Source: Curtobacterium sp. Leaf183 (GTDB lineage: Bacteria > Actinomycetota > Actinomycetes > Actinomycetales > Microbacteriaceae). From it: a stretch of 64,000 nt of DNA. The stretch spans positions 239,274 to 303,273 of the forward strand of contig NZ_LMPO01000007.1 of the NCBI RefSeq assembly GCF_001424385.1. Direction: 5' to 3'. Under the pieces are notes generated by a model. That model saw only the letters and a program-made list of their open reading frames with translations, had not been told where the DNA came from and ran no database searches. Position numbers and translations under genes: made by a program. Numbering within the stretch: the stretch's first letter is position 1; each line of letters starts with the position of its first letter. Shown here one piece after another: positions 42,983 to 63,041 of the stretch.

Positions 42983-43028
42983 TCCCGCCCCGCCCGTCAC
43001 GTCTCGAATTCAGCAAGAGAGAAGAACA

Positions 43029-46910
<3,882 letters not shown>

Positions 46911-46986: not shown

Positions 46987-47385
46987 TCAGCGCGCGCGGC
47001 CGGCGTCGCTGTCGTGGCCGCCGGACCCCCGCCCCGTCTCGTCGACGAGCGAGTACAGGCTGAGGACGTTGCCGTCGGGATCGTGGACGTCGAACCAGTC
47101 GACGGCTCCGTCGACGCGTTCCACCGGGCCGACGTCGATGCCGAGGGCCGCGATGCGGGTGCGCTGTGCGACCACGTCGTCGACGCCGAACCGCACGACG
47201 GCCGGGTTCTCCTCGGCGTCGGGGTCCTCGACCAGCTGGATCCAGATGCCGCCGATCTCGTACTCGGCGATGCCCGCGGCGGGCTCGAGGTCGGGGTCCA
47301 GCCGCTCGAACACGGCGCCGTACCACAGGCAGGACGCTTCGATGTCGGTGACGGGCAGCCCCACGGTCACGCTCGTGATGTCCAT
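46987..47385 (-). CDS. VOC/glyoxalase-superfamily protein
   Basis: A 132-residue vicinal-oxygen-chelate protein. The paired beta-alpha-beta-beta-beta modules appear as 'SVTVGLPVTDIEASCLWYGA' and 'FDVHDPDGNVLSLYSLV'. The final Glu or Gln metal ligand seen in true glyoxalases is not obvious, so it may bind rather than transform its ligand. Gly/Asp-rich tail. It converges on rpoC and is divergent from the pilus locus. Confidence 0.8.
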   Translation of the reverse strand: MDITSVTVGLPVTDIEASCLWYGAVFERLDPDLEPAAGIAEYEIGGIWIQLVEDPDAEENPAVVRFGVDDVVAQRTRIAALGIDVGPVERVDGAVDWFDVHDPDGNVLSLYSLVDETGRGSGGHDSDAGRAR

Positions 47386-47632: not shown

Positions 47633-49300
47633 ATGGCCACGCTCTCCGAGATCCTGATCCTCAACGGAGCCCTCCCCATCGAGCACCTCGACTCGCTCAC
47701 CGGCGACGAGGAGATCGACGAACGCTCGATCCGGACGCTCGTCGACCGCGGGGTCGTCAGCGAAGCGCAGTTCATCACCGCGCGGGCGGCGTCGAACAAC
47801 TCCAAGACCGTGCCCCTCACCGACTACCCGGTCGACGGCACCGCCGTGTCGATCCTGCCCGCGGCGCTCTGCCGGCGGCACGGGGTCCTCGGCGTCGGCT
47901 TCGAGGGCGACGTCCTCGTGCTCGCGATGGTCAACCCGTCGAACGTGCTCGCGATCGACGACGCCCGCGCCGCGTGCGGCCGCGCCATCCGTCCGCTGCA
48001 GGTCGACGAGCGTGACCTGGCGTCCGCGCTCGACCGCTACCTGCGCGCCGACGACGAGCTGAACGACCTGACCTCGTCGCTCGAAGAAGAAGCGTCGTCG
48101 ACCACCCAGCAGGCCGACATCTCCGAGGGGTCGCTCGACGACGTCCCGATCGTCCGCTTCGTGAACCTGCTCGTCTCGCAGGCCATCCAGGACCACGCCT
48201 CGGACATCCACATCGAGCCCGGTGAGCACGAGGTCCGGGTGCGCTACCGCATCGACGGCGTGCTGCACGAGATGGCGCCGGCGCCCAAGAACATCCAGAA
48301 CGGCGTCATCAGCCGCCTCAAGATCATGAGCGACATCGACATCGCGGAGCGACGCAAGCCGCAGGACGGCCGCATGTCCGTGCGGCACGGTGGCCGCCAG
48401 ATCGACCTCCGTGTAGCGACGCTGCCGACGGTGTGGGGCGAGAAGGTCGTCATGCGCATCCTCGACAACACCAACACGTCGCTGACCCTGACCGACCTCA
48501 ACCTGCTCGCGCAGAACGCGGCGGCGTACCAGCGTTCCTACTCCAAGCCGTACGGCATGATCCTGGTCACGGGGCCGACGGGGTCCGGCAAGTCGACCAC
48601 GCTGTACACGACCCTGAACGCGGTCGCCCGCCCCGAGATCAACGTCATCACCGTCGAGGACCCGGTCGAGTACCGGATGGCCGGCATCAACCAGGTGCAG
48701 GTCAACCCGAAGGCCGGCCTGACCTTCGCCTCGGCGCTGCGCTCCATCCTGCGGTCCGACCCCGACGTCGTCCTGCTCGGTGAGATCCGCGACCACGAGA
48801 CGGCGCAGATCGCGATCGAGGCCTCGCTCACCGGGCACCTGGTGCTCTCCACGCTGCACACCAACGACGCCCCCTCGGCGATCACCCGCCTGACCGAGAT
48901 GGACATCGAGCCGTTCCTGGTCGGCTCGGCGCTCGACTGTGTTGTGGCGCAGCGCCTCGCCCGCAAGCTCTGCGACCGCTGCAAGGCCCCTGCCGTGTAC
49001 GAGCCGGGGCAGCTCGCGGCGCTCGGCTTCATCCCGAGCGCCGACGCCCCGGTGCCGGACTTCTGGGCGCCGATCGGCTGTGCCGTGTGCTCGAACACCG
49101 GGTACCGCGGGCGCATCGCCCTGCACGAGGTCATGACGGTCACCGAGGAGATCGAGCGGCTCGCCGTCGCCCGTGCCTCGAGCGCCGAGATCAGCCGGGT
49201 GGCGCAGGACCAGGGCATGCTCACCCTCCGCCAGGACGGGTGGGAGAAAGTGAAGCTCGGTCTGACGAGCGTCGACGAGATCCTGCGCGTGGTCGCGTAG
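47633..49300 (+). CDS. pilB: type IV pilus extension ATPase
   Basis: Hexameric assembly motor on the cytoplasmic face of the pilus machine, 555 residues. The N-terminal MshEN/GspE domain covers about 1-150. Walker A 'GPTGSGKST' is at 314-322 and the Asp box and His box follow ('VITVEDPVEYRM', 'STLHTNDAPSAITRL'). The tetracysteine zinc site diagnostic of PilB/GspE motors is C447, C450, C483 and C486. ATG at 47633 follows AGAAGGAGG and GAGG tracts. First gene of the pilus locus, with pilT 15 bp downstream. Confidence 0.95.
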   Translation: MATLSEILILNGALPIEHLDSLTGDEEIDERSIRTLVDRGVVSEAQFITARAASNNSKTVPLTDYPVDGTAVSILPAALCRRHGVLGVGFEGDVLVLAMVNPSNVLAIDDARAACGRAIRPLQVDERDLASALDRYLRADDELNDLTSSLEEEASSTTQQADISEGSLDDVPIVRFVNLLVSQAIQDHASDIHIEPGEHEVRVRYRIDGVLHEMAPAPKNIQNGVISRLKIMSDIDIAERRKPQDGRMSVRHGGRQIDLRVATLPTVWGEKVVMRILDNTNTSLTLTDLNLLAQNAAAYQRSYSKPYGMILVTGPTGSGKSTTLYTTLNAVARPEINVITVEDPVEYRMAGINQVQVNPKAGLTFASALRSILRSDPDVVLLGEIRDHETAQIAIEASLTGHLVLSTLHTNDAPSAITRLTEMDIEPFLVGSALDCVVAQRLARKLCDRCKAPAVYEPGQLAALGFIPSADAPVPDFWAPIGCAVCSNTGYRGRIALHEVMTVTEEIERLAVARASSAEISRVAQDQGMLTLRQDGWEKVKLGLTSVDEILRVVA

Positions 49301-49315
49301 GCCGAGGAGAGAACG

Positions 49316-50923
49316 ATGACCGACTCCGTCTACGACATCACCGACGCGAACGAACCGATCGCTGGCTGGCACCCGGGCCGCCCGGGCACCGAGGTCGGCT
49401 CGCGTCGCGCGGCCCGTCTCGCCCAGGCAGCCGAGGGACACGCGCAGCCGTTCGCCGGACCGGCGGGTGGTCTGGCCGCGGCTCCGGCCGCACCAGCGGT
49501 TCCGGTGTACGACCTGGCCGACGACCTCGCCGCGTGGCCGGCTCCTTCCGGTGCGCCGGTGGCCGTCCCGGTCGCGCAGCCGTCCGGTGCCGCGACGCCG
49601 TCCGGTGCGGCGACGCCGTCCGCCGCGGTGCCGCCGTCCACTGCCAGCTACGGGTACGCCGACGCGGTGACCCAGCACCTGCCGACGGCGTCTGTGCAGG
49701 CGACCACGGTCCTCCCGACCGTCGGCGCCGCCGTCGGTGTGCAGGAGATCGACTTCAGCCGCCACGCGCGCGAGGTCGCGGATCCCGACCTGATCACCGC
49801 GCTGGCCCAGGTCGTCTACCAGGGGGCGTCCGACCTGCACGTCACCGCCGACGCACCGCCCACCGTCCGCGTCGACGGCTCGCTCCGACCGGCCGTCCCC
49901 GGCGGACCCTGGTCCCGCAACAAGGTCATCGCCGCGCTGAAGACCGTCATGACCGTCGAGCAGGCCGGCACGTTCGACCACGAGCAGGAACTCGACTTCG
50001 CGTACTCGCTGTCGCCCGAGTACCGCTTCCGCGTCAACTTCTACCAGCAGCGCGGCAACTGGGGCGCGGCGTTCCGCATCATCCCCACCAAGATCAAGAC
50101 GCTGAAGCAGCTGGGCATCCCCGAGCACGTCGGCGACTTCGCCAAGCTGCCCCGCGGACTCGTGCTCGTCACCGGGCCGACCGGTTCGGGCAAGTCGACC
50201 ACCCTCGCGGCGCTCATCGACCTGGTGAACGAGACGCGTGCCGACCACATCGTGACGGTCGAGGACCCGATCGAGTTCATGCACGACCACAAGCGGGCGA
50301 TCATCAACCAGCGCGAGGTCGGCGCGGACACGCACTCGTTCGCCCGGGCCCTGAAGCACGTGCTGCGGCAGGACCCCGACGTCATCCTGATCGGCGAGCT
50401 GCGCGACCTCGAGACCATCTCGGTGGCGCTCACCGCCGCCGAGACCGGGCACCTGGTGTTCGCGACCCTGCACACGCAGAGTGCCCCCGGCACCATCGAC
50501 CGCGTGATCGACGTGTTCCCGCCGCATCAGCAGGGCCAGATCCGCACCCAGCTCGCATCGACGCTCGAGGGCGTCGTCTGTCAGACCCTCGTGCCGAAGG
50601 CCACCGGCTCAGGCCGCGTCGTCGCGACCGAGATCATGACCACCACCCCCGCGATCGGCAACCTGATCCGCGAGGGCAAGACCTACCAGATCACCTCGGC
50701 GATGCAGGCCGGTCGTGACCTCGGCATGCACACGATGGACCAGGACCTCGCCGAGCTCGTCAACGTCGGCACCGTCACCCGCGCCGCCGCGATGGAGAAG
50801 GTCCACGACCACGAAGGGTTCGACCGGCTCGTCCAGCGCGTCGAGTCCCCGTCCGACTCGTCCGCCGCGGCCATCGCCGCGAGCGAGATCGACTTCGGCG
50901 ACAAGTTCTCCGGAGGCCACTGA
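49316..50923 (+). CDS. pilT: type IV pilus retraction ATPase with N-terminal extension
   Basis: Retraction motor, 535 residues; typical PilT is about 350. Residues 1-140 are an Ala/Pro/Ser/Val-rich, apparently disordered extension containing repeated 'PSGAAT' units. The normal PilT core follows: N-terminal PAS-like domain, Walker A 'GPTGSGKST' at 287-295, 'VEDPIEFMHDHKRAIINQRE', and the PilT signature AIRNLIRE as 'AIGNLIRE' at 446-453. There is no tetracysteine site, which separates it from PilB. ATG at 49316 has GAGGAGAG upstream. Its stop overlaps the pilC start by one base (TGATG). Confidence 0.94.
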   Translation: MTDSVYDITDANEPIAGWHPGRPGTEVGSRRAARLAQAAEGHAQPFAGPAGGLAAAPAAPAVPVYDLADDLAAWPAPSGAPVAVPVAQPSGAATPSGAATPSAAVPPSTASYGYADAVTQHLPTASVQATTVLPTVGAAVGVQEIDFSRHAREVADPDLITALAQVVYQGASDLHVTADAPPTVRVDGSLRPAVPGGPWSRNKVIAALKTVMTVEQAGTFDHEQELDFAYSLSPEYRFRVNFYQQRGNWGAAFRIIPTKIKTLKQLGIPEHVGDFAKLPRGLVLVTGPTGSGKSTTLAALIDLVNETRADHIVTVEDPIEFMHDHKRAIINQREVGADTHSFARALKHVLRQDPDVILIGELRDLETISVALTAAETGHLVFATLHTQSAPGTIDRVIDVFPPHQQGQIRTQLASTLEGVVCQTLVPKATGSGRVVATEIMTTTPAIGNLIREGKTYQITSAMQAGRDLGMHTMDQDLAELVNVGTVTRAAAMEKVHDHEGFDRLVQRVESPSDSSAAAIAASEIDFGDKFSGGH

Positions 50924-52146
50924 TGTCGCTCGCGTTCGACTACCGGGGCCGTGACGGGGGCGGCAAGCTCGTCAAGGGGCGGCTCGACGCAGCGTCCGAG
51001 GGTGCGGTCGTGCAGCGGCTGCGCACGATGGGGGTCTCGCCGATCGCCATCACCGAGGCCAAGGCCGGCACGGGGCTGCAGACCGAGATCCACATCCGCG
51101 CGCTCGAGAAGGGCGTCGGGCTCAAGGACCTGGCGATCATGTCGCGACAGGCCTCGACGATGCTGTCGTCCGGCCTGTCCCTGCTGCGTGCGCTGACGAT
51201 CCTCGCGGACCAGACCGAGAACAAGAAGCTCAAGGGCATCCTCGGCAAGGTGCGCGACGACGTCGAGCGCGGCGTCTCGTTCTCCGACGCCGTCGCGAAG
51301 TACCCCGTCGACTTCCCCCCGATCATGATCAACATGATCCGTGCCGGCGAGACCGGCGGTTTCCTCGACCAGGCGATGGACTCCATCGCCACGAACTTCG
51401 AGAAGGAGCACAAGCTCCGCTCGACGATCAAGTCGGCGATGACCTACCCCGTCGTCGTGCTCGTGATGTCACTCGTCGCGGTGGTCGTCATGCTCGTCTT
51501 CATCGTGCCGGTCTTCCAGGACATGTTCTCCTCGCTCGGCGGGCAGCTGCCGCTCCCGACGCAGATCCTGGTCACGCTGTCGCACGCCATGCGGTGGGGC
51601 GCGCCCGTCCTGGCCGTGGCGGTCGTCGTCGGGTGGCTCTGGTACCGGTCGAACAAGAACACCGACCGGTTCCGTGCGTTCCGCGACCCGATCATGCTGC
51701 GGATGCCGGTCTTCGGCGCATTGTCGAAGAAGATCGTGATCGCCCGGTTCGCCCGGAACTTCTCGAACATGATCGGCTCCGGCGTGCCCATTCTTCAAGC
51801 ACTGAAGATCGTCGGGGAAGTGTCGAACAACTTCGTCGTACAGAAAGCCGTCGAGCGCGTCGCAGAAAGCGTCCGGAAAGGCGAATCGATCGCCGAACCA
51901 CTCGCCAAGGAGAAAGTGTTCCCGAGCATGGTCGCGCAGATGGTCGCGGTCGGCGAGGACGCCGGTTCCCTCGAGGTGATGCTCGAGAAGATCGCGGTGT
52001 TCTACGACTCCGAAGTGGAATCGACCACCGAGGCACTGACCTCGCTCATCGAGCCGCTGCTCATCGCCTTCCTCGGCGTGGTGGTCGGCGGCATGATCAT
52101 CGCGCTCTACCTGCCGATCTTCCAGATCACGTCGTTGATCCACTGA
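50923..52146 (+). CDS. pilC: type IV pilus inner-membrane platform protein
   Basis: Platform protein that couples the motors to pilin insertion, 407 residues. Two repeated T2SSF cytoplasmic domains ('LKDLAIMSRQASTMLSSGLS', then 'IARFARNFSNMIGSGVPILQ') and three membrane helices (about 165-190, 215-235, 370-400) are visible. The section at 51780-51925 uses more A/T-ending codons than the rest. Followed by a rho-independent terminator before pilA. Confidence 0.95.
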   Translation: MSLAFDYRGRDGGGKLVKGRLDAASEGAVVQRLRTMGVSPIAITEAKAGTGLQTEIHIRALEKGVGLKDLAIMSRQASTMLSSGLSLLRALTILADQTENKKLKGILGKVRDDVERGVSFSDAVAKYPVDFPPIMINMIRAGETGGFLDQAMDSIATNFEKEHKLRSTIKSAMTYPVVVLVMSLVAVVVMLVFIVPVFQDMFSSLGGQLPLPTQILVTLSHAMRWGAPVLAVAVVVGWLWYRSNKNTDRFRAFRDPIMLRMPVFGALSKKIVIARFARNFSNMIGSGVPILQALKIVGEVSNNFVVQKAVERVAESVRKGESIAEPLAKEKVFPSMVAQMVAVGEDAGSLEVMLEKIAVFYDSEVESTTEALTSLIEPLLIAFLGVVVGGMIIALYLPIFQITSLIH

Positions 52147-52186
52147 ACCTCCGGGCACCCCTCTGTCGGGGGTGGCTGCGGTGACG

Positions 52187-52216
52187 AATGCCCCCGCTAC
52201 TGGGGGCATTTTGTTG
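52187..52216 (+). terminator. rho-independent terminator between pilC and pilA
   Basis: A 9-bp stem AATGCCCCC/GGGGGCATT with a 6-base loop is directly followed by TTTTGTTG, a classic intrinsic terminator, unusual in this window for having a T-tract. It separates the motor genes from the pilin genes. Confidence 0.88.
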
Positions 52217-52231
52217 CCCTCTCACCCCCCG

Positions 52232-52252
52232 TTCTCGGGATTACGCCCAGAA
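52232..52252. promoter_or_regulatory. inverted TTCTGGG-like motif upstream of pilA
   Basis: TTCTCGGG (52232-52239) and CCCAGAA (52246-52252) form a near-palindrome 81-101 bp before the pilA start codon. It matches the motif found twice upstream of pilB. Confidence 0.35.
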
Positions 52253-52332
52253 TGTGCCCCGAATACGCTTGTCACCGGCGGCGAGCAAAGCCCCACAATC
52301 CTCCACGACATTCCCAGAAGAATGGAACAACC

Positions 52333-52761
52333 ATGTACTTCGCTCTCATGGGCAAGCTCGACGCTCGCCGTAAGGGACTCCTCGCCGAGGAGGAGAAGGG
52401 CTTCACCCTGATCGAACTCCTCGTCGTCGTCATCATCATCGGCATCCTCGCGGCGATCGCGATCCCGGTGTACCTGAACGTGCAGAACAACGCGAAGGAC
52501 GCGACGGTCAAGTCCGACCTGGCGAACGCGAAGACCGCGGTCATCGCGTTCCAGACGGACAAGAACGGCAAGCTGCCGACCTCGACCGAGTTCAACACTC
52601 CCGCAACGATGACCCCGTACGGCTGGACCAAGAGCACGGACACGAGTTTCACGTACGCACCGGCAACCACCGGCTCGACGTTCTCGATCTGTGCCGTCGG
52701 TGCGACCACGACCAGCTACAAGATCACCGACACGACGGCTGCCGCCCCCGGAACCTGCTGA
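52333..52761 (+). CDS. pilA: major type IV pilin
   Basis: Major pilin subunit, 142 residues. The leader is 23 residues ('...AEEEKG') with cleavage after G23; the mature protein starts with Phe (F24), has Glu at +5 (E28) and the canonical helix 'FTLIELLVVVIIIGILAAIA'. The compact C-terminal domain has two Cys (in 'SICAVG' and the final residue), likely the D-region disulfide. ATG at 52333. Processed and N-methylated by the PilD encoded downstream. Own promoter expected, because a terminator precedes it. Confidence 0.95.
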   Translation: MYFALMGKLDARRKGLLAEEEKGFTLIELLVVVIIIGILAAIAIPVYLNVQNNAKDATVKSDLANAKTAVIAFQTDKNGKLPTSTEFNTPATMTPYGWTKSTDTSFTYAPATTGSTFSICAVGATTTSYKITDTTAAAPGTC

Positions 52762-52841
52762 TCCGAGTGACTCCCCGGGGGCGGTTCGTCTGACGACGGG
52801 CCGCCCCTTGCTCGAACCCGACGACGCCCGAGGAGGTGACC

Positions 52842-54302
52842 ATGTTCCAGCGCATCCACCGCGTGCTGCGACCGATCGACCCCGCCGACCGCGAGTCGGG
52901 CATGTCGATCATCGAGGTCATGGTCGCCATGATGGTCTTCGCGGTGATGTCCGTGGGGATCGCCTACGGCATCGCGAACACGCTCCAGCTCACCCAGACC
53001 AGCCGCGGTCGCGAGACCGCGGTGGCACTGGCGTCCCAGGACATCGACCAGCTGCGGCAGACCGCCGCGGGCTCGACGGCGGGCATCTTCAAGGTCGTCG
53101 GCGCGGCCGGGGCCGACAACACCAAGACCATCGGCGGGGTCACCTACCAGATCGACCGCACCGTGAAGTGGGTCCAGAGCGACGGCGCGAGCGGCGCCTG
53201 CGGCACGTCGAACGGCAAGCTCGCCTACAAGAGCGTCGTCGAGAAGGTGTCGTGGCCGAACCCGCGCACCGGCACGTCGTCGACGACGGTCTCGTCGGCG
53301 ATCGCGCCGAGCGACGCGGTGACGGACCCCGGGTACGGCACGGTGATCGTCTCCGTCGTGAACGCATCCGGAGCGCCCTTCGCCGGTGTCTCCATCACGA
53401 TCACGCCGGTGAGCGGCAGCGGCGGCGCGGCGCTGTCGACCCCGGCGCTGCCCACGGACACCCAGGGCTGCTCGTACGCCGTCAACGTCGTCCCGGGCGA
53501 CTACACCGTCACGGCGACCACCGCCGGCGGCATCGACACGAGCCAGGGGCAGCCGTCCAAGCAGTCGCCGATCACGGTCAGCGCCGGGGCGAGCTCACCC
53601 GTCCCCTTCGTCTACGACACCGCGAGCCCGCTCACCCTCCAGTACGCGGCCCCCTACGGCGCGACGCTCCCCTCGAACATGGTGACGGTGCTCTCGAGTT
53701 CGGTGGGCGGTCTGGACACGGTCAAGCCGTGGGACGTGACGAACACCGCACTCGTCGTCACGTCGGCATCCAGGCCGAGCCTGCCGGTCTTCCCGTTCAC
53801 GTCCGGGTACACCGTGTACGCCGGGCCGTACTCGAACAGCACGAGTTCGAGCACCTCATGCCTCAGCCCCAACCCCGCAGCATGGACGACCCCGGGACAG
53901 ACCGGCGCGATCGGCACGAGTCCGCCGGTCGTGACGACGAGTCCGGGAAGTCCCGCGAACGCCTCGGTGATGATGGGCGTCGCGACGGTCAAGGGCGTCA
54001 AGGGCCGGTACGTCACCGCCGTCTCGTCGGCGAGTGCCGGGGCCGGCGACCCGGGGTGCTCCGCCGGCATGACGATGAACTTCCCGGTGTCGACCGGTGA
54101 CACCGCCACGATCGCGCTGCCGTTCGGGACCTGGACGATCTCCTCCGGCACCAGCTTCGGCTCGACCACCAGGAACGAGATCGCGTCGAACGCGTCGAAC
54201 GTCAAGCCGGTCACCCCGGGCAACGTCAACCAGAAGACGGCCCTCATCATCATCAACTACGACAACACGCTGACGCTCGACCCGCGCGGGCAGACCTCGT
54301 GA
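52842..54302 (+). CDS. large minor pilin (PilV-like) with beta-sandwich domain
   Basis: A 486-residue prepilin-like protein. Cleavage site 'DRESG|MSIIEVMVAMMVF' after G20, with Glu at +5 (E25). It is far longer than usual minor pilins. The middle region ('GVSITITPVSG', 'VVPGDYTVTATTAGG') resembles a Cna-B/carboxypeptidase-regulatory beta-sandwich, and the C-terminal half is Ser/Thr-rich and beta-type. This suggests a pilus-tip or adhesive subunit. An excellent AGGAGG at 52831 supports ATG at 52842. Its stop overlaps the next start (GTGA). Confidence 0.85.
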   Translation: MFQRIHRVLRPIDPADRESGMSIIEVMVAMMVFAVMSVGIAYGIANTLQLTQTSRGRETAVALASQDIDQLRQTAAGSTAGIFKVVGAAGADNTKTIGGVTYQIDRTVKWVQSDGASGACGTSNGKLAYKSVVEKVSWPNPRTGTSSTTVSSAIAPSDAVTDPGYGTVIVSVVNASGAPFAGVSITITPVSGSGGAALSTPALPTDTQGCSYAVNVVPGDYTVTATTAGGIDTSQGQPSKQSPITVSAGASSPVPFVYDTASPLTLQYAAPYGATLPSNMVTVLSSSVGGLDTVKPWDVTNTALVVTSASRPSLPVFPFTSGYTVYAGPYSNSTSSSTSCLSPNPAAWTTPGQTGAIGTSPPVVTTSPGSPANASVMMGVATVKGVKGRYVTAVSSASAGAGDPGCSAGMTMNFPVSTGDTATIALPFGTWTISSGTSFGSTTRNEIASNASNVKPVTPGNVNQKTALIIINYDNTLTLDPRGQTS

Positions 54303-55003
54303 GCGCCCTCGGTCGGCGGGTCCACGACGACCAGGCGGGCGTCTCCCTCGTCGAGGTCATCGTGGCCGTGAGCATCTCGCTCGTCATCCTGCTGGCCGTC
54401 GGCGGGTTCTTCACCGCCACCCTCCGTGCCGGCTCGACGAACACGACGTCGGACCAGAACGCCCGATCGGCGTCGATCGTCATGAACTCCGTGACGCGCT
54501 ACGTCCACGCAGCGAGCCTGGTGCCGAAGGCCGACGGGTCCTACGCCGGAGCGGTGACCCAGGCGACGGGGACGCAGCTCACCTTCACCGCCTTCATCAA
54601 CCTCGACGGCAGCAGCACGGACAACCCGGTCCAGGTGCGCTACTCCCTCAACGCCGCACGACAGCTCGTGCAGGACCAGTGGGCGGGAACGGCGACCAAC
54701 GGGTTCTGGTCCTTCCCGCCTCCGACCCAGACACCGACCCGGTCCGTGGTCCTGGGCGGCCCGGTCGCCTCGCCCACGGCGGAGGGCGACTTGCTCTTCA
54801 CGTACCTGGGGGCTGACGGCAACGCGCTCCCGACGCAGGCGGACGGAGCCCTCACGGCGTCCCAGCTCGGCAGCATCCGCGCGGTCCGCACGAACCTCGA
54901 ACTCGGTTCGACGACCGCCGGCGCATCGGGGAACACCCGCATCCAGAACACGCTGTACCTCTTCAACGTGGTCTACGGCACGAACATCGGAGCCACACCG
55001 TGA
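54299..55003 (+). CDS. minor pilin (PilW-like)
   Basis: A 234-residue prepilin-like protein. Cleavage site 'DDQAG|VSLVEVIVAVSISLV' with Glu at +5. The C-terminal domain is beta-rich without a recognised name. GTG start overlaps the previous stop, and its own stop overlaps the next start (GTGA), giving tight coupling across the minor pilins. Minor pilins usually prime pilus assembly as a tip complex. Confidence 0.85.
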   Translation: MSALGRRVHDDQAGVSLVEVIVAVSISLVILLAVGGFFTATLRAGSTNTTSDQNARSASIVMNSVTRYVHAASLVPKADGSYAGAVTQATGTQLTFTAFINLDGSSTDNPVQVRYSLNAARQLVQDQWAGTATNGFWSFPPPTQTPTRSVVLGGPVASPTAEGDLLFTYLGADGNALPTQADGALTASQLGSIRAVRTNLELGSTTAGASGNTRIQNTLYLFNVVYGTNIGATP

Positions 55004-56904
55004 TCCGCTGGATCCACGACCGCCTCGTGCGCGGGCACCAGGACGAACGCGGCATGGTCCTGGCCAACGTCATCATCTTCGGCACGGTCATGATGCTGCT
55101 GGTCGCGACCATGGTGGCCGTCTCGACGTCGGGAGCGATCAAGTCCGCGACCGACCGCAACTTCCAGAACGCCATGACGGCCGCCTACGCCGGACTGGCC
55201 GACTACCAGGCCAAGCTCTCGAACGACAACGGGTACGCGCTGTACGGCGACGCGAACGCGCAGTTCAGCAAGACCAGCGGCTCCGCGTTCACCGGCAACG
55301 ACGACAACACGGCGTTCACGAGCAGTGGGTCGACGTGGGCGCCGGTCGTCGGCTCCACGGACCAGTGGTACCGGTACGAGGTCGACAACTCGAACTACTC
55401 CGCGAAGGGCGTCCTGCGTGTCCGGGTGACCGGCAAGTCGGGCGGCAGCGTGCGCTCCCTGGTCGCGAACCTCAAGGGCGACGGGTTCATCAACTACCTG
55501 TACTTCACGAACTACGAGTCGTCCAACCCCGCGATCTCGGGGAGCTCCTGCACCACTGCCTACCAGTGGCAGTCCGGCGTGGCGAACAAGTGCCAGGCGG
55601 TGCAGTTCGCCGGGACCGACGTGCTCAACGGCCCGATCCGTTCCAACGACGTGTTCACCGCGGCGTGCTCCACCACCTTCAACGGATCGGTGGAGCAGCA
55701 CGACGCCACGGTCCGCCCGTCGAGCGGCACCTGCGGCGGCACCTTCAACGGCGGTGCCGCGTCGGCCGTGCCGTACCTGGGGCTGCCGGCGCTGAACTCG
55801 AACATGTCGCAGGAGACCCGGACGGACATCCCGTCGACGGTCCCGCGACCCGGGTGTCTGTACACGGGCCCGACCCGCGTCGCGTTCCTCGGCAACGGGA
55901 AGATGACCGTCTGGTCGCCGTGGTCGAAGGCCACGCAGATCAAGGTGAGCTCCGGGTCCGGGGCTGTCACCGCCTCGGACGACACCGCGAAGGCGGCCTC
56001 GCTCTGCGGCGCGGTCGGTGACCTGCAGAGCGCGAACGGTGCGACGATCGCCACCCTGCCCTCGAACCTGATGTACGTCCAGGACGTGCCGTCCGCTGCG
56101 AACAACGTCAACACCTGGCCGACTGGGTCGTACCCGTCGAAGTACTCCAACACGTACTGCACGACGGCGGTCTCCGTGAAGAACGGCTCCGCGACCCTGA
56201 CGCCGAACCAGGCATTCAGCAACGGCCAGGGCTTCCCCGCATCGGGGGAGTGGGTGAACGGCGGCAAGTCCTCGTCGGGCTCGACCTACCAGACCGGGTC
56301 GGCCTCGGACACGTACTCGTGCACGGCCGGCGACGTCTTCGTCAACGGCGGGTTCTCCGGCGCGATGACCATCGCGTCCTCGGGCACCATCTGGGTGACG
56401 GGCGACGTCACCTACGTCGACGGCACCGCCGACATCCTCGGTCTCGTCGGACAGAACGCGGTCGAGGTGTACAACCCGTCCAAGTGCACCTCGTACCCGA
56501 TGACCGGTTCGTGGTGGGCCGGCTCCGTGACCGACTCCTCGCGCTGCAACAGCGCCGGCGTCGGGCTCCTGAACCGCTCCGGTGGGGTGGGGATCACAGT
56601 GAGTGCGGCGATCGCCAGCAACGCCGGGACCTTCTGGAACCAGAACTACGACATCGGACCGCAGCTCGGTGTCCTCAAGGTGATCGGCTCGATCGCGCAG
56701 AACTGGCGCGGTCCCGTCGCGACCACCGGCGGCACCGGGTTCTCCAAGAACTACGTCTACGACCAGCGGCTGCTGACGACGGCGCCGCCGAAGTTCCTGC
56801 AGCCGGTGTCGACGTCCTACGGGGTCACGACGCAGATCGAGGTGCAGTCCGCGTACCAGGTGGACGGGACCTGCGCGAAGACGAGCGCCGGGGTGTGTCG
56901 ATGA
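55000..56904 (+). CDS. PilX-like protein with large extracellular domain
   Basis: A 634-residue protein. The N-terminus 'DERGMVLANVIIFGTVMMLL' looks like a pilin helix after a Gly, but lacks the Glu at +5, as in PilX-type proteins. The remaining 590 residues are extracellular, rich in Ser, Gly, Thr, Asn and Tyr, with about a dozen Cys and repeating beta-strand segments ('GDVFVNGGFSGAMTIASSGT', 'IWVTGDVTYVDGTADILG') reminiscent of beta-helix proteins. A tip adhesin is the best guess. GTG overlaps the previous stop; pilD overlaps its stop. Confidence 0.78.
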   Translation: MIRWIHDRLVRGHQDERGMVLANVIIFGTVMMLLVATMVAVSTSGAIKSATDRNFQNAMTAAYAGLADYQAKLSNDNGYALYGDANAQFSKTSGSAFTGNDDNTAFTSSGSTWAPVVGSTDQWYRYEVDNSNYSAKGVLRVRVTGKSGGSVRSLVANLKGDGFINYLYFTNYESSNPAISGSSCTTAYQWQSGVANKCQAVQFAGTDVLNGPIRSNDVFTAACSTTFNGSVEQHDATVRPSSGTCGGTFNGGAASAVPYLGLPALNSNMSQETRTDIPSTVPRPGCLYTGPTRVAFLGNGKMTVWSPWSKATQIKVSSGSGAVTASDDTAKAASLCGAVGDLQSANGATIATLPSNLMYVQDVPSAANNVNTWPTGSYPSKYSNTYCTTAVSVKNGSATLTPNQAFSNGQGFPASGEWVNGGKSSSGSTYQTGSASDTYSCTAGDVFVNGGFSGAMTIASSGTIWVTGDVTYVDGTADILGLVGQNAVEVYNPSKCTSYPMTGSWWAGSVTDSSRCNSAGVGLLNRSGGVGITVSAAIASNAGTFWNQNYDIGPQLGVLKVIGSIAQNWRGPVATTGGTGFSKNYVYDQRLLTTAPPKFLQPVSTSYGVTTQIEVQSAYQVDGTCAKTSAGVCR

Positions 56905-57731
56905 GCGAGATGGCCTTCTCCACGCTCGTGGCCGGACTGTTCGGACTGGTGATCGGGTCGTTCCTCAACGTGGTCGTCTACCGGGTGCCGGCGGGGCTGT
57001 CCGTCGTCGCACCGGCGAGCGCCTGCCCCCGATGTGACCACGCCATCCGTCGCCGGGACAACGTGCCGGTCCTCTCGTGGCTGGTGCTCCGCGGTCGCTG
57101 TCGCGACTGCGGCGCCGGCATCTCGGCACGGTACCCCGCGGTGGAACTGGGGACGGCGCTGCTCTTCGCGCTCGTCGGGGCGACCGTTGCGTCCCCCTTC
57201 GCGGGCATCGACGCGACGCAGTCGACCGGGCGGGCGATCGTGCTGGTCGCCTTCCTGTACCTGATGGCGGTCAGCGTGGCGTTGGCCCTCATCGACCTCG
57301 ACGTCCATCGGCTCCCGAACGCGATCGTCTACCCGTCGTTCATCGTCCTCCTGGTCCTCTTCGCCGGTGCGAGTGCCGTGACCGGCGACTGGGAGGCGCT
57401 CTTGCGGGCGCTCGCGGGGAGCGCCGTGCTCGGCGTCGGCTACCTGGTGCTGGCGTTCACCGCACCCAACGCGATGGGCCTCGGCGACGTGAAGCTCGCC
57501 TTCGTCCTGGGTCTCGCACTCGCGTACCTCGGATGGGGACCCCTCGCAGTGGGTGCTTTCGGAGCGTTCATGGTCGGCGGTACCGTCGCGATCGCGCTCC
57601 TCACACTCCGCCTCGTGCGGTGGCGTGGGGGCGTGCCGTTCGGTCCGTCCATGCTCACCGGTGCCTGGATCGGGATCCTGTTCGGTGACCGGCTCTGGGC
57701 GTCGTACCTCGCGCTCCTCGGCCTCGCCTGA
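56901..57731 (+). CDS. pilD: prepilin peptidase/N-methyltransferase
   Basis: Membrane aspartyl protease that removes pilin leaders and methylates the new N-terminus, 276 residues. The catalytic Asps are D132 ('LIDLDVHRLPN') and D196 ('GLGDVKLA'), 64 residues apart as in the family. The N-terminal cytoplasmic zinc-type site has two CxxC pairs ('CPRCDHAI', 'CRDCGAGI'), marking the bifunctional form. Eight helices. The ATG overlaps the previous stop. Confidence 0.95.
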   Translation: MSEMAFSTLVAGLFGLVIGSFLNVVVYRVPAGLSVVAPASACPRCDHAIRRRDNVPVLSWLVLRGRCRDCGAGISARYPAVELGTALLFALVGATVASPFAGIDATQSTGRAIVLVAFLYLMAVSVALALIDLDVHRLPNAIVYPSFIVLLVLFAGASAVTGDWEALLRALAGSAVLGVGYLVLAFTAPNAMGLGDVKLAFVLGLALAYLGWGPLAVGAFGAFMVGGTVAIALLTLRLVRWRGGVPFGPSMLTGAWIGILFGDRLWASYLALLGLA

Positions 57732-57773
57732 GCACCCGGACCTCCGCAACCGACCAGCAAGGAGACCAGCATC

Positions 57774-58826
57774 ATGGGCAAGAGCATCGTCGGCCTCGAC
57801 ATCGCCGGGTCCTCCATCCGCGCTGTCGAGGTCGCGGACGCCGACCGTGCGCGACCCACGGTCGTCCGCTTCGCCGAGGTCCCGACTCCCGAGGGGTCCG
57901 TCAGCCGGGGTGAGGTCCTCGAGCCGAACACCGTCGCGAACGCGCTCAAGCAGCTCTGGTCGATCGGCAAGTTCCGCTCCCGCGACGTGATGCTCGGGAT
58001 GGGCAACCAGCGCGTCCTCTCCCGCGACCTGACCGTGCCTCGCGCACCGCTCGCACAGATCCGCGAGAGCCTGCCGTTCCAGGTGCAGGACATGCTGCCG
58101 GTGCCGGTGGGGGACGCCATCCTCGACTTCTACCCGATCTCCGAGGGGGAGAGCGAGGGCGGCCCGGTGCTGCACGGGCTCCTCATCGCGGCGATCAAGG
58201 ACGCGGTCCTGGCGAACGTCCGAGCGGCGCAGCTGGCCGGGCTGAACACGGTCGGCGTCGACCTGATCCCGTTCGCGCTCACCCGGGTGCTCGTCGGCCG
58301 GCAGCAGCACCGCGGGACCACCGCACTCGTCCAGCTGGGGGCCGACACCACCAGCGTCGTCCTGGTGACGGACGGAACACCGCAGTTCGTCCGCATCATC
58401 CCCAGCGGCGGCAACGACATCACGAAGGCCCTCGCGAACCGCCTCGAGATCTCGTTCGAGCAGGCCGAGTCCGTGAAGCGGCACCTGGGGATCGGACGTT
58501 CTGCCCGGACCCCCGACGACGCGAGGGCGATCGCCGCGACGTTCGACGCGGTCAACGAGCTCATGGCGAGCCTCCGGAACACGATCAGCTACTTCGTGAA
58601 CACCCGACCGAGCGACGCGGTGTCCCGCATCGTCGTCACCGGCGGCGGGTCACGGCTCATCGGTCTGCGCGAGGCGCTGGCGGACTACACGCACCTGCCG
58701 GTCGAGATCGGCGCCGCCTTCGCAGGCACGAGTCTCGGGCGGACGATCCGCGACGAGGACATCGCCGAACACGGCGACACGATCGCTGTGGCCTACGGCC
58801 TCGCAGTGGGAGGCAGAGCAGCATGA
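57774..58826 (+). CDS. pilM: type IV pilus assembly protein PilM
   Basis: Actin-like cytoplasmic ATPase-fold protein that links the motors to the PilN/PilO membrane complex, 350 residues. It opens with 'KSIVGLDIAGSSIRAVEV' (phosphate-1 loop) and has 'VQLGADTTSVVLV' and 'VVTGGGSRLIGLREAL' as the remaining nucleotide-binding elements. AAGGAG precedes the ATG. pilN overlaps its stop (ATGA). Confidence 0.94.
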   Translation: MGKSIVGLDIAGSSIRAVEVADADRARPTVVRFAEVPTPEGSVSRGEVLEPNTVANALKQLWSIGKFRSRDVMLGMGNQRVLSRDLTVPRAPLAQIRESLPFQVQDMLPVPVGDAILDFYPISEGESEGGPVLHGLLIAAIKDAVLANVRAAQLAGLNTVGVDLIPFALTRVLVGRQQHRGTTALVQLGADTTSVVLVTDGTPQFVRIIPSGGNDITKALANRLEISFEQAESVKRHLGIGRSARTPDDARAIAATFDAVNELMASLRNTISYFVNTRPSDAVSRIVVTGGGSRLIGLREALADYTHLPVEIGAAFAGTSLGRTIRDEDIAEHGDTIAVAYGLAVGGRAA

Positions 58827-59548
58827 CGACCACCGATGCACGCCCGGTGACGGTTCCCGACGCCGCTCCGGAGCGGCCCCGACGGGTGCGCGGCAAGTCC
58901 GCTGCGGCGGAGGTCGGCCGTGAACCCCACGTCGACCTCCTGCCCGCCGAAGTCCACGTCGACCGGCGTGCTCGAGGGATCGCACGTCGAGCATGGCTCG
59001 GCGTCGTCCTGGCGGCCGCGGTCGTCGTCCTCGGGGCCGGTGGGGCGGTGGCACACGAGATGGCCACTGCGGCCGACCTGCGATCGGCGCAGGCCGAGAC
59101 GTCGACGCTCCTCGCGCAGCAACAGCGGTTCGCCGAGGTCCGCGCTGCTGAACAGCAGACGCAGCTGCTCCGGGCCGGACAGGCCGTGGGTGGTGCGACC
59201 GAGATCAACTGGGGCGACACGCTCACGAGTCTGCAGACGGCGCTCCCGACGGACGTCGAGATCAGCGCGATGACGATCGCCGCCGCCGACGCGACCACCC
59301 CGTTCTCCCAGTCGACCGCCGCACTCGCGCAGTCGCGCGTCGCCACCCTCAGCATCACGGTGAAGTCGCCGGAGATCCCGGCCGTCCCGGACTGGAACGA
59401 ACGCCTGTCGTCCCTCACCGGGTACCTGGACTCGTCGATCTCCTCGATCTCGTACGAGAAGGAGAAGGCCCGGTACAGCTCGGTGATCGAGCTGCAGCTC
59501 GGCGAGAAGGCATTCGACGGCAAGTACACGAAGGACGCGGACCGATGA
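58823..59548 (+). CDS. pilN: type IV pilus assembly protein PilN
   Basis: Bitopic membrane protein, 241 residues. The N-terminal cytoplasmic part contains 'HVDLLPAEV', the PilM-binding INLLP-type motif, one membrane helix follows at about 60-80, then a coiled coil and a ferredoxin-like extracellular domain. Overlaps pilM and pilO by four bases each (ATGA). Confidence 0.92.
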   Translation: MTTTDARPVTVPDAAPERPRRVRGKSAAAEVGREPHVDLLPAEVHVDRRARGIARRAWLGVVLAAAVVVLGAGGAVAHEMATAADLRSAQAETSTLLAQQQRFAEVRAAEQQTQLLRAGQAVGGATEINWGDTLTSLQTALPTDVEISAMTIAAADATTPFSQSTAALAQSRVATLSITVKSPEIPAVPDWNERLSSLTGYLDSSISSISYEKEKARYSSVIELQLGEKAFDGKYTKDADR

Positions 59549-60273
59549 ACAAGAACCGTCTCTCGCTCGTCGTCGCCCTGGCGGTGTCCGCGGTCGTCCT
59601 CGCCGGCGGCTGGTTCCTGGGCGTGCAGCCGCAGCTCGCCATGGCCTCCGCGAACGGGACCCAGCAGCAGACGATCGACGCCACCAACGGCAAGAACCGC
59701 ATCGAGCTCGCGCGACTCGCGAAGGCATTCACGACGCTCGACAGCACCAAGGCGGAGCTGTCGGGGCTACAGGCGTCGATCCCGGCGACCACCGACACGG
59801 GCCCCTTCATCCGTTCGCTCTACTCCTATGCGGAGGCGACGGACGTGCGGATCACGAGCGTGACGTTCGCCGACCCGAAGCCCTACGCACCCGAGGCGAG
59901 CGCGGCAGGGGCTCCCGCGAGCGCAGCGTCGAGCGCGACCCCGAGCGCGACCCCGAGCCCGACCGCCAGCGCGACCCCGTCGGCGCCCGCGAGTGCCGCT
60001 GCCGCGTTGCCGCAGGCGGTCCTCCCCCACAGCGACCCCGAGATCACCGGCGCGAACTTCACCGTCATCGGCGTGGACCTGTCCGTCGACGGGTCGTACG
60101 ACCAGGCGCTCGCGTTCACGAAGGCAGTCCAGGGGGGAGACCGACTGTTCCTGGTCAGCGACATCGCCGCGGCCAGCACGGACGAACTCCCGCCGATGGA
60201 CGCGCAGTCGTGGTCGCTGACCGGTGAGATCTACGTGCTCACCGATCCCTCCGCGACCCCCGCCGCAGGCTGA
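59545..60273 (+). CDS. pilO: type IV pilus assembly protein PilO
   Basis: Bitopic partner of PilN, 242 residues. One N-terminal membrane helix, a helical stretch, and a ferredoxin-like domain split by an insertion of about 30 residues made of Ala/Ser/Thr/Pro repeats ('SATPSATPSPTASATPSAPA', about residues 130-150). The insertion is probably a flexible surface linker. No PilP or secretin gene follows, as expected for a monoderm. Confidence 0.9.
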   Translation: MNKNRLSLVVALAVSAVVLAGGWFLGVQPQLAMASANGTQQQTIDATNGKNRIELARLAKAFTTLDSTKAELSGLQASIPATTDTGPFIRSLYSYAEATDVRITSVTFADPKPYAPEASAAGAPASAASSATPSATPSPTASATPSAPASAAAALPQAVLPHSDPEITGANFTVIGVDLSVDGSYDQALAFTKAVQGGDRLFLVSDIAAASTDELPPMDAQSWSLTGEIYVLTDPSATPAAG

Positions 60274-60459: not shown

Positions 60460-61050
60460 GTGTTGTCTGGAATCGTGGAGTTCCTCGGCTGGTTCGGAGC
60501 CGTAACCGTATTAGCTGGTTACATTCTGTTCTCGACGGGCAAGCTCCCGAACGGCCCCGTCTACCAGTTGTTCAACCTGGTCGGAGGGGTCTCGGTCGCG
60601 ATCAACGTCGCCGCCCACCACGCCGTCCCGTCCACCATCGTGAACGGGATCTGGGCGATCGTAGCGGTCGTCGTCCTGGTCCGGATGGCCAGAGCACGCC
60701 GGGCCGCCCGACGGACCGGCCTCGAGCCCACCAGAGAACTGCACGCCGAGCCGCCGGCGACGACCGCGGTGCTGCCCGTGATCGGCCCTGCCGTCCACGC
60801 GCACGACGCCGCGGCGACGGCCGTGACGGACGCCACCCCGAGCCTCCAGGACGTGCCGGCGCTCACCGAATCGGAGCGAGCCCACCGTGAGCCAGCCGCC
60901 CCGATGACCGCGAGCGTCCCCGTCATCACCGCGACCATCGCACTGGCCCTCGTCAGCGCAGCCCAGGAGCAGCACCGCGCGCAGCGCGACGCGCAGCCCG
61001 GCGCCCGGCGGGACGACCAACAGGCCACGGCCGCAGACCGCGTCGGCTGA
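60460..61050 (+). CDS. membrane protein, CBU_0592-like domain
   Basis: A 196-residue protein. Residues 1-75 contain three hydrophobic helices with the CBU_0592-like pattern ('GWFGAVTVLAGYILFSTGKL', 'LFNLVGGVSVAINVAAHHA'). The remainder is Ala/Glu/Arg-rich and probably disordered and cytoplasmic. GTG at 60460 starts the gene. A run of A/T-ending codons including a TTA leucine codon occurs at 60502-60526. Function unknown. Confidence 0.75.
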   Translation: MLSGIVEFLGWFGAVTVLAGYILFSTGKLPNGPVYQLFNLVGGVSVAINVAAHHAVPSTIVNGIWAIVAVVVLVRMARARRAARRTGLEPTRELHAEPPATTAVLPVIGPAVHAHDAAATAVTDATPSLQDVPALTESERAHREPAAPMTASVPVITATIALALVSAAQEQHRAQRDAQPGARRDDQQATAADRVG

Positions 61051-61093: not shown

Positions 61094-61531
61094 ATGTCCC
61101 GATGGCTCGTGGCGACGATGACGTCCGTCCTCTTCATCGCCCTCGTGATCGCGGTGACCGGCTTCGAGGCGCTGCTCGCGAACGTCGAGGTCATCGCGCA
61201 GACCGACGCCACCCCCTACCTCGGCCCCGCGATGGTCGTGGGCGGCGCCGTCGTGGTGTTCATCGCGACGGCGCTCGGCGTGCGCGAGGGCAACCCCGGC
61301 GTCACCGGGCTCGTCGCCGCCGCGACCACGTACCTCGTCATGCTCGGCGTCGGCGCCGTCGGCTACGCCCTGATCCGCCGTGACGTGACGGAGCTGCTCG
61401 TCTTCCCCGCCGGCTACGCACTCGGGCCGTTCGTCGTCGGTTCGGTCGTGGTCGCGATCCTGTCCGTGGTCGGCGGTGTCACGGTCGCCAGGCACCAGCG
61501 CGACAGTCCGGGTGACGCGGGTCGTCGCTAG
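61094..61531 (+). CDS. hypothetical four-helix membrane protein
   Basis: A 145-residue protein consisting of four hydrophobic helices with short loops and a charged C-terminus. I do not recognise a family. ATG at 61094. It lies between the pilus locus and rpsL on the same strand as both. Confidence 0.72.
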   Translation: MSRWLVATMTSVLFIALVIAVTGFEALLANVEVIAQTDATPYLGPAMVVGGAVVVFIATALGVREGNPGVTGLVAAATTYLVMLGVGAVGYALIRRDVTELLVFPAGYALGPFVVGSVVVAILSVVGGVTVARHQRDSPGDAGRR

Positions 61532-61580
61532 GCTGCAGGATGCCGGAGCGCGACTCCGGCGACGACGCAACGGGGGACCG

Positions 61581-62750
61581 ATGACCGATCAGCAGCACAC
61601 GCCGGACAACCCCGGCGCCGGGGACGCACACGACCGCGACGGGTGGGGGTCCGTCCCGGAGGTGTCCTCGATCAGCGGCGCTCACGACGTCCCGCAGCCC
61701 CTCGCCGGACCGGCGTCACGACCGCGCCGTCGCCTCGGACGCGGCGCCCTGGTCGGCATCGTCGCCGGGGGCGCGGCCGTCGTCCTCCTGCTGGTCGCCG
61801 GTGTCGTCGGGTACGCCGTCGGCACAGACTCGCACTCTGCCGACCGTCCGGTCCGGGCCTTCCTCGACGACCTGTCGGCCGGCCGGGTCGACGACGCGCT
61901 CACCGCGGCCGGCGTCCGGCACACCAAGTCCGACGTCCTGCTGACCGACGCCGCCTACCGCAAGGCGAACGACCGCGTGACCGGGTACCGCATCACCGCC
62001 GTGCGACAGGACGGCGACACCGCCACGGTGGGCGCGTACATGACACAGGCCGGCCGACAGGTCCCCGCGACCTTCACGCTCGACAAGACCGGCACCGACT
62101 GGGGCGTGTTCCCGAAGTGGCAGCTGCAGGCTCCGCGTCTCGGCGCGGTCGACGTCCAGGTCCAGGGGCCGCCGAAGTCGACGGTCACCGTCGCCGGGCA
62201 GCGGGCGACCACCGACGCGTCCGGTGCGTTGACGCTCACGGCCCTGCCGGGCTCCTACCCGGTGGCGGTCGACGGCGGCAAGTGGTTCACCGCCGACACC
62301 CAGACCGCGGCGGTCCGGGGCTTCTCCGGCACGGCGAGCAGTCCGGTGTCGCTCAGCACCACGCTGACCGACGCGGGCAGACAGGCCGCCACGGACGCGG
62401 TCAACGCCTGGGTGGACGGCTGTGTCGCGTCGACGTCGACCAAGCCCGACGGCTGCAGCTTCTACGCGTACGGCGAGAACCCGGCGAACACGTACACCAA
62501 CCAGAAGTGGACGCTCGACTCCCGACCCACGATCTCCGTCGACGGCTGGCTGTCCAAGGGGTGGGCCGTCACGACCTCGTCCTTCGGTTCCGCCACGTAC
62601 ACCGCGGACTTCACCGGACCCGCCGGAGCCGGCACCGCCACTGCCGGGCCCATCAACGTCAACGCCAGCGGCTACGTCACCGGCTTCTCGGACACCGGCG
62701 CCACGTTCGAGTCCGCGATCGGCAACGGGTCCTCAGACACCGGTTCCTGA
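61581..62750 (+). CDS. hypothetical membrane-anchored extracellular protein
   Basis: A 389-residue protein. An N-terminal acidic/Pro-rich cytoplasmic part of about 55 residues is followed by a basic stretch and one membrane helix (about 56-78). The outer part begins with an NTF2-like domain of the kind in DUF4878 lipoproteins ('RPVRAFLDDLSAGRVDDALT'), then a middle domain with a beta-rich carboxypeptidase-regulatory-like segment ('GPPKSTVTVAGQRATTDASG'). It ends with a Ser/Thr/Gly-rich domain containing two Cys. ATG at 61581. Role unknown; cell-envelope location is likely. Confidence 0.72.
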   Translation: MTDQQHTPDNPGAGDAHDRDGWGSVPEVSSISGAHDVPQPLAGPASRPRRRLGRGALVGIVAGGAAVVLLLVAGVVGYAVGTDSHSADRPVRAFLDDLSAGRVDDALTAAGVRHTKSDVLLTDAAYRKANDRVTGYRITAVRQDGDTATVGAYMTQAGRQVPATFTLDKTGTDWGVFPKWQLQAPRLGAVDVQVQGPPKSTVTVAGQRATTDASGALTLTALPGSYPVAVDGGKWFTADTQTAAVRGFSGTASSPVSLSTTLTDAGRQAATDAVNAWVDGCVASTSTKPDGCSFYAYGENPANTYTNQKWTLDSRPTISVDGWLSKGWAVTTSSFGSATYTADFTGPAGAGTATAGPINVNASGYVTGFSDTGATFESAIGNGSSDTGS

Positions 62751-62873: not shown

Positions 62874-63041
62874 CTCTCGGGTGTGCGCCTTCGGGCGCGC
62901 CGCGAAGTCCGGCGGGTCGAAGACCTCGATCCGGACAGTCCGCCCCCAATCCACGTCCGCCGGTTCGGCGGTCGTCTGCGTGGGCGAGGATGCCGACGGT
63001 CCGCGTCGGCCAGAGAACACGAGCGAGAACCAGGAGAACAG

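Follow-up and report, generated by a model that had tools for sequence, protein, structure and literature searches.

Mosaic inheritance of a type IVa pilus locus at the rpoC-rpsL site of Curtobacterium sp. Leaf183, with an apparently exchanged pilin-side cassette

Does the type IV pilus locus that lies between rpoC and rpsL in Curtobacterium sp. Leaf183 descend as one unit, and what would its pilus be used for? The locus was studied in a window of 64,000 nucleotides (assembly GCF_001424385.1, contig NZ_LMPO01000007.1, positions 239,274 to 303,273), by which we mean the whole stretch analysed; coordinates below count from its first letter. A preliminary description had listed pilB, pilT, pilC, pilA, three minor pilin genes, pilD, pilM, pilN and pilO on one strand within 47633..60273, and all of them were found there, on the + strand and in that order. 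It had also supposed that the site would keep the locus vertically inherited. This holds for the site and for pilB and pilT, but the part from the 3' half of pilC to pilO appears to have been exchanged repeatedly. From the gene genealogies, a cassette of about 8.8 kb between the middle of pilC and the pilO stop codon (51403..60273, + strand, the left edge being approximate) appears to be an exchanged allelic block, while the site and the motor genes stay vertical.

The genealogies were taken from 46 Microbacteriaceae loci (L045-L090). Six of these were dropped (L047, L058, L070, L079, L087 and L089) and four failed the whole-rpoC rule (L049, L066, L078 and L085), which left 36 loci plus the window. 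The PilX proteins of these 37 Curtobacterium genomes were grouped into five types (average linkage, 45% distance) and the type changes were counted on each gene tree, the minimum being 4. The backbone trees of rpoC, pilB and pilT have 19 changes each, and the tree of the DUF6121 gene downstream of the locus also has 19, over 35 rows. The counts are 4 for each of pilV, pilW and pilX, 5 for pilN and pilO, 6 for pilM, and 8 for pilD, pilA and the whole of pilC. When pilC (50923..52146, +; platform protein with two T2SSF stretches) is split, codons 1-160 follow the backbone with 19 changes and codons 190-407 follow the cassette with 5. Sliding windows place the shift at about codons 160-260, the range of the left cassette edge, and the first strong hydrophobic segment of PilC spans residues 177-195. 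Median protein identity among 41 Curtobacterium sequences (40 for rpoC) is 97.7% for rpoC, 91% for pilB, 85% for pilT and 84% for pilC; for the genes that follow it is 57% (pilA), 37% (pilV), 33% (pilW), 45% (pilX), 65% (pilD and pilM), 46% (pilN) and 45% (pilO). Fast trees across genera, with a PilX recognised in 30 of 56 other loci, place type X1 together with the PilX proteins of other genera, and the Curtobacterium PilB and PilM proteins stay together.

The edges of the cassette can be seen between close relatives. Six close pairs were compared (L051/L055, L048/L080, L056/L071, L052/L059, L046/L083 and L061/L086). Their nucleotide identity is 98-99% in rpoC, 91-97% in pilB, 88-95% in pilT and 79-88% in pilC, falls to 64-72% in pilA and 51-73% from pilV to pilO, and is back at 84-100% by the second 50-nucleotide window past the pilO stop. 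In the four pairs that have DUF6121, this gene is 94-95% identical. The PilX type differs in five of the six pairs; L046 and L083 share a broad type, and their identity drop starts at the start of pilC, earlier than in the other pairs. Twelve pairs reach 98.5% identity or more in rpoC, and in 6 of them the PilX type differs.

Swaps were also found in two of the three other genera compared closely. For example, L220 and L221 of genus g48 match at 89% over pilB-pilC (by gene, pilB 97%, pilT 91% and pilC 75%) and at 97.6% downstream, and from pilA to pilO only pieces match, at 75-79%; L220 and L222 match continuously at 85%. In genus g35, of which three pairs were covered, L223 and L225 show no match from the pilA head to pilX and 89.8% identity over pilD-pilO, which is a smaller exchanged unit. 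No swap was seen between L144 and L216 of genus g80, and genera g5, g58 and g74 held no pair close enough for judging exchange. Among the matches listed from the open-access literature, none reports that pilins or cassettes are exchanged in Curtobacterium or other Microbacteriaceae, which is not proof of absence.

We account for these results by a machine of two parts, a complete type IVa pilus at an rpoC-rpsL station in which chromosomal motors are combined with an exchanged pilin-side cassette, and we consider this reading as a whole to be quite probable. The station would be specific to the family, and the machine would have been inherited there since the early Microbacteriaceae, with roughly half of the genomes lacking it. 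What remains with the chromosome would be PilB, PilT and the start of PilC. The travelling half would consist of the membrane-spanning and second cytoplasmic parts of PilC, the head of PilA, PilV, PilW and PilX, PilD, and PilM, PilN and PilO, with deeply diverged alleles replaced largely as a block, presumably via homologous recombination in the conserved flanks. PilC physically links the ATPase and the pilin, as described in PMC10191384. With an exchange point close to the first membrane segment of PilC, the motor-facing start would stay with the motors and the pilin-facing rest with the pilins, and the parts that contact pilins may travel together because they must fit each other. The ATPases, on the other hand, should be compatible with any cassette set. 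In operation, PilV, PilW and PilX would prime and cap the PilA fibre, which PilB would extend and PilT retract. PilX, which has no Glu5, would end the fibre and present a ComZ-like beta-solenoid, and PilV would present a CnaB-like domain.

The models of these two tip proteins bear on the use of the pilus. PilX (55000..56904, +) is a GspK-like tip pilin lacking Glu5 in 41 of 41 proteins. Its model is that of a pilin bearing a large beta-solenoid. The best solved match is ComZ (PDB 6qvi), and FfIBP is matched too; as in ComZ, the solenoid probably forms an insertion within the pilin head. At the level of sequence, Pfam gave no family match for PilX at E 0.01, and profiles of PilX and PilN, searched against PDB sequences, found weak, unrelated-looking matches only. 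PilV (52836..54302, +) is a modular minor pilin in which a CnaB/transthyretin-like beta domain was modelled at about residues 165-263. The VIA rows for PilV cover mainly residues 161-264, and residues 264-440 have no fold assignment. In these models the ComZ-like fold favours DNA uptake and the CnaB-like domain favours adhesion, and we favour a retractable pilus whose interchangeable tip would serve to capture DNA or to adhere. The most likely use would be that the solenoid tip captures DNA (or a surface) and is then retracted, and the diversity of the cassettes may be driven by phages that use the pilus, by ligand specificity, or by both.

A serious competitor to the DNA-capturing tip is a pilus for adhesion or twitching, in which the solenoid and the CnaB-like domain would act as adhesins for plants or other surfaces, DNA uptake being either uninvolved or served by another pilus. 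Its chance falls a little short of even. The CnaB/transthyretin-like domain is known from Gram-positive surface adhesins and pilins, the modular tip pilins of Streptococcus sanguinis are described as carrying grafted adhesive domains (PMC10191384), and transformation in another actinobacterium, Micrococcus luteus, is stated to use a Tad-type pilus (PMC6916266). A third PF00437 ATPase is also encoded elsewhere in the host genome (3.58 Mb). Against adhesion, the closest solved fold of PilX is ComZ, a proposed DNA receptor. The DNA-capturing tip has weaknesses of its own. The identity to ComZ is 10-15% and the root-mean-square deviation over the chain is 11.6-17.9 A, and the fold match is therefore no demonstration of DNA binding. 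The co-occurrence of ComEC was rejected as evidence for DNA uptake, as ComEC is near universal (245 of 249 Microbacteriaceae genomes) and equally present in genomes without PilM, so that it is not specific to the pilus. In favour of DNA uptake, HHH_3 domains, which we read as being of the ComEA type, occur in the host genome. The fullest version, in which a pilus with a ComZ-like DNA-receptor tip could import the DNA that exchanges its own cassette, with a recurrent pilC breakpoint and with types kept by phages or ligand specificity, is a tentative proposal that we regard as rather doubtful.

Could the pattern of identities simply reflect surface proteins that diverge fast, as is ordinary for them, under vertical descent and with no exchange? 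The pilins, PilN and PilO do evolve fast: the median ratio of nonsynonymous to synonymous substitution (dN/dS), a relative guide only as the distances are large, is 0.57-0.91 for them (pilins 0.70-0.91), compared with 0.09 for rpoC and 0.13-0.20 for pilB, pilT and pilC. Third-position distances are high as well. However, the PilX types clash with the rpoC tree, on which 26 of the 34 inner branches are starred; at 99% identity in rpoC, pilX is 57-59% identical in some pairs but 90-98% identical in others that are just as close; and the edges within pilC and at the pilO stop are sharp. We regard fast divergence as very unlikely.

Several observations nevertheless weigh against a clean exchange of the cassette. 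Randomly shuffled type labels average 22.3 changes on the rpoC tree and 19 or fewer occur in 3.3% of 1000 shuffles, which means that some vertical signal is left. The block is imperfectly linked, with 10 changes for pilA codons 1-70 (8 for the head) and 6-10 in pilD and pilM windows, the overall range of short windows inside pilD, pilM, pilN and pilO being 5-10. Cassette third-position distances of 0.44-0.50 weaken rank correlations, but not the comparisons of close pairs. The 3' end of rpoB as a second backbone marker was uninformative (13 rows, 6 changes, minimum 4). Just outside the right edge, the open reading frame (ORF) at 60460..61050 is itself variable, at 75-89% in the five pairs having it. 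Finally, L067 and L069 form a reverse mosaic, in which pilX is 97.8% identical compared with 89.9% for pilB, 85% for pilT and 84% for DUF6121, and the flanks may sometimes be the moving part.

The gene calls indicate what kind of machine is divided in this way. The extension ATPase gene pilB (47633..49300, +), with the backbone genealogy, encodes an MshEN domain and matches PF00437 at E 7.7e-137, both above cut-off; TIGR02538 gives 608 bits, under its strict cut-off of 675.65, and the top relatives among solved structures are PilB proteins (best 5zfr, E 6.5e-148). The retraction ATPase gene pilT (49316..50923, +), also of the backbone genealogy, scores 462.5 bits with TIGR01420 (cut-off 319). 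A low-complexity, Pro/Ala-rich N-terminal extension of about 160 residues precedes its ATPase core (49316-49800), and the length of the PilT frame differs widely between relatives. Curtobacterium PilB and PilT have exact Walker A, acidic and histidine motifs in 41 of 41 cases; for another PilT motif, at the C-terminal side, the exact pattern was matched in 23 of 41 only. The major pilin PilA (52333..52761, +; N_methyl E 1.2e-7) is an FTLIEL pilin of 142 residues with a class III signal peptide and Gly-1. Its N-terminal helix is near-invariant and its head hypervariable in an alignment of 23, and Glu5 is kept in 41 of 41; a tandem pair of pilA-like genes stands upstream of pilV in Curtobacterium L078, L083 and L085. 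The pilW-like minor pilin (54299..55003, +) has an N_methyl match at E 5e-5 and Glu5 in 41 of 41. No fourth, H-type minor pilin was seen in the locus beside PilV, PilW and the Glu5-less PilX.

The prepilin peptidase/methylase PilD (56901..57731, +) matches PF06750 (E 3e-34) and PF01478 (E 7.5e-11), with its GDVK and cysteine motifs present in 41 of 41. The actin-like alignment protein PilM (57774..58826, +) matches PF11104 at E 8e-38, TIGR01175 with 151 bits (cut-off 133) and, among solved structures, PilM 2ych at E 8e-34. As single sequences, PilN and PilO had no Pfam match at E 0.01, and alignments were used afterwards. The call of pilN (58823..59548, +) then follows from weak sequence evidence (PF05137 in 6 of 20 aligned members, best E 0.002), from its position and from an xxDLLP motif in 39 of 41, which we take to be tied to PilN. 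The placement of pilO (59545..60273, +) is firm, PF04350 being matched in 20 of 20 members and the Myxococcus PilO 3jc8 at E 1.3e-11.

The preliminary description was right that the machine has no secretin: PF00263 had no match genome-wide (the control matched in 6 of 14), PilP not having been searched for. This speaks against a diderm type IVa pilus, and the 142-residue FTLIEL pilin together with a single PilC with two T2SSF stretches speaks against a Tad (type IVc) pilus. PilY1 (PF05567) had no match in the genome, the control being likewise silent in all genomes. The reading as a complete, monoderm, secretin-less type IVa pilus locus is supported, and the further suggestion of a retractable pilus is probable. 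A protein-exporting pseudopilus of the type II secretion kind has a few points in its favour, as PilB, PilC and PilA also score with the GspE, GspF and GspG models, below cut-off, and PilX is GspK-like without Glu5. Set against PilT and PilM above their curated cut-offs and the missing secretin match, it is a highly improbable reading.

The locus does lie between rpoC (42915..46910, +), the conserved left flank, and rpsL (63036..63410, +), the conserved right anchor, but not directly next to either. A gene of the VOC/glyoxalase superfamily (46987..47385, -; PF00903 E 1.7e-4) sits between rpoC and pilB; counted by eye, it was recognised in 36 of 44 locus maps of Curtobacterium and kin and in no map of other genera. 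Between pilO and rpsL there are three ORFs, namely the one at 60460..61050, the DUF6121 gene (61094..61531, +; PF19616 E 3e-64), with which the non-cassette genealogy returns, and one at 61575..62750.

This arrangement is shared widely within the family. With the best PilM hit taken per genome, and leaving out 26 of 123 genomes without an rpsL place and 3 with the two genes on different contigs, 93 of 94 Microbacteriaceae genomes have rpsL on the same strand as PilM and 1.7-40 kb downstream of it (8 kb or less in 72, 8-40 kb in 21), G119 being the one that does not. Outside the family, in 72 hand-picked PilM-positive genomes of which 70 have an rpsL match, positions compared by eye put rpsL near PilM on the same contig and strand in only 2, both of family f91 (about 22 kb); many PilM/rpsL pairs of this set are split between contigs, and no PilM position was listed for G259. 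Other families of the order have a similar gene order, pilB-T-C-A-V...D-M-N (L188, L189, L191 and L193), with the pilT of L191 located by search and pilO recognised in L188 and L193.

The PilM marker (PF11104) was matched in 123 of 249 Microbacteriaceae genomes (122 above cut-off), representing 50 of 85 genera and including all 5 genomes of the host genus in the survey. It was also matched in 79 of 198 genomes sampled across the order, 63 of 197 across the class and 240 of 396 across the phylum. Gram-positive pil operons with pilT were reported in 2011 (PMC3244431), type IVa pili have been reported in some Actinobacteria (PMC6668835), and 12 type IV pilus genes are listed in a genome note on a Curtobacterium (PMC5054313). 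Among Microbacteriaceae it is ordinary to carry the locus, and the earlier idea that such a pilus is unusual for the group is not borne out. The remaining 126 family genomes, some of them incomplete drafts, have no PilM match, which further qualifies vertical inheritance. In 20 family genomes that lack PilM at the site (19 without PilM, and G119), tblastn found no pil gene within 16 kb upstream of rpsL; the complete rpoC-rpsL interval is 0.25-9.7 kb in 9 of them and rpoC is further away in 11.

The PilC tree has 70 rows, as six of the 75 chosen loci had no pilC, and includes 10 of 13 loci from outside the phylum. Its 60 Actinomycetota rows form one group (support 81, not starred), and the Microbacteriaceae rows, 44 in number, come close to doing so (3 changes). 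From this distribution, the site and the machine look old in Microbacteriaceae, with many losses. That the whole locus is a recent, horizontally acquired island was rejected because its G+C content of 64-71% shows no step from that of rpoC (66-67%), and because the PilC tree largely follows taxonomy and the site is widely shared in the family. One pil locus of another family, L200 (G915), nests within Microbacteriaceae on the PilC tree, which likely reflects a transfer out of Microbacteriaceae. In genus g78, G078 and G193 each have several PilM hits, and G078 (L156, L157) has second or third pil gene sets nearby. The reduced genome G092 (1.4 Mb; L158) keeps pilB-T-C-A-D-M-N, with V, W and X unrecognised; divergent tip genes were possibly overlooked.

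Frameshifts in related strains had been named as a sign against a working pilus, and the frames were found open. For pilC, 46 of 46 loci cover 90% or more of the protein encoded in the window, as do 44 of 44 for pilD and pilM and 44 of 46 for pilB, the two remaining contigs starting downstream of pilB. For the fast genes the counts are 36 of 46 (pilA), 32 of 43 (pilV) and 24 of 44 (pilN), with frames that are open yet divergent. The exception is L079 (CP121450.1), in which the pilT, pilX and pilO frames are shortened and rpoC is split; this looks more like sequencing error than like decay, because rpoC is broken alongside the pil genes. That the locus is silent or decaying baggage, as the lack of PilM in about half of the family genomes might suggest, deserves almost no credence given the open frames, the genus-wide purifying selection that acts on the machine genes (median dN/dS 0.13-0.37 for pilB, pilT, pilC, pilD and pilM) and the catalytic motifs kept in 41 of 41.

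In actinobacteria, type IVa pili have received little study; in a 2019 review, pili studied so far in Actinobacteria are all given as of Tad (T4c) type (PMC6916266). Near-sister strains with sharply different cassettes offer a natural system for asking which type IV pilus parts must match, where the breakpoint inside pilC would mark the division between matching parts. The same system makes the ligand of the solenoid tip pilin a testable question, and if the tip does take up DNA, there would be a type IVa route to transformation in actinobacteria.

When compared with the monoderm type IVa pili of Streptococcus sanguinis and Clostridium, as presented in PMC10191384 and PMC6916266, the locus shares a single location for its genes, the lack of a secretin, a long-leader major pilin, and PilB, PilC, PilD and PilM-N-O, and with S. 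sanguinis also modular tip pilins. Unlike those, it is actinobacterial, occupies a ribosomal/RNA-polymerase site, and has minor pilins of V-W-X (I-J-K) type and a solenoid tip. The Gram-positive operons surveyed in 2011 share pilB, pilC, pilD, pilM, pilN and often pilT; Clavibacter, Leifsonia, Microbacterium and Micrococcales are nowhere named in the main text of that survey, and the sections consulted mention neither the rpoC-rpsL site nor allelic exchange (PMC3244431). The ComZ/PilA2 tip of Thermus thermophilus likewise has a large beta-solenoid joined to a GspK-like pilin (PMC6561018, PDB 6qvi). FfIBP, described by the ComZ authors as a solenoid relative of ComZ (PMC6561018), is the nearest other solenoid for both ComZ and PilX. 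PilX differs from ComZ in its low identity in structural alignment and in its monoderm host. Pilin groups I-V of Pseudomonas aeruginosa are also discrete, exchangeable alleles linked to minor-pilin type, for which escape from pilus-specific phages has been suggested as a driver (PMC4628258, PMC11841053). Unlike them, the present cassette is one contiguous and larger block that includes pilD, pilM-N-O and half of pilC, with its breakpoint in the platform gene. It is the cassette exchange and the solenoid tip pilin, rather than the mere presence of the locus, that set it apart from the known type IVa pili.

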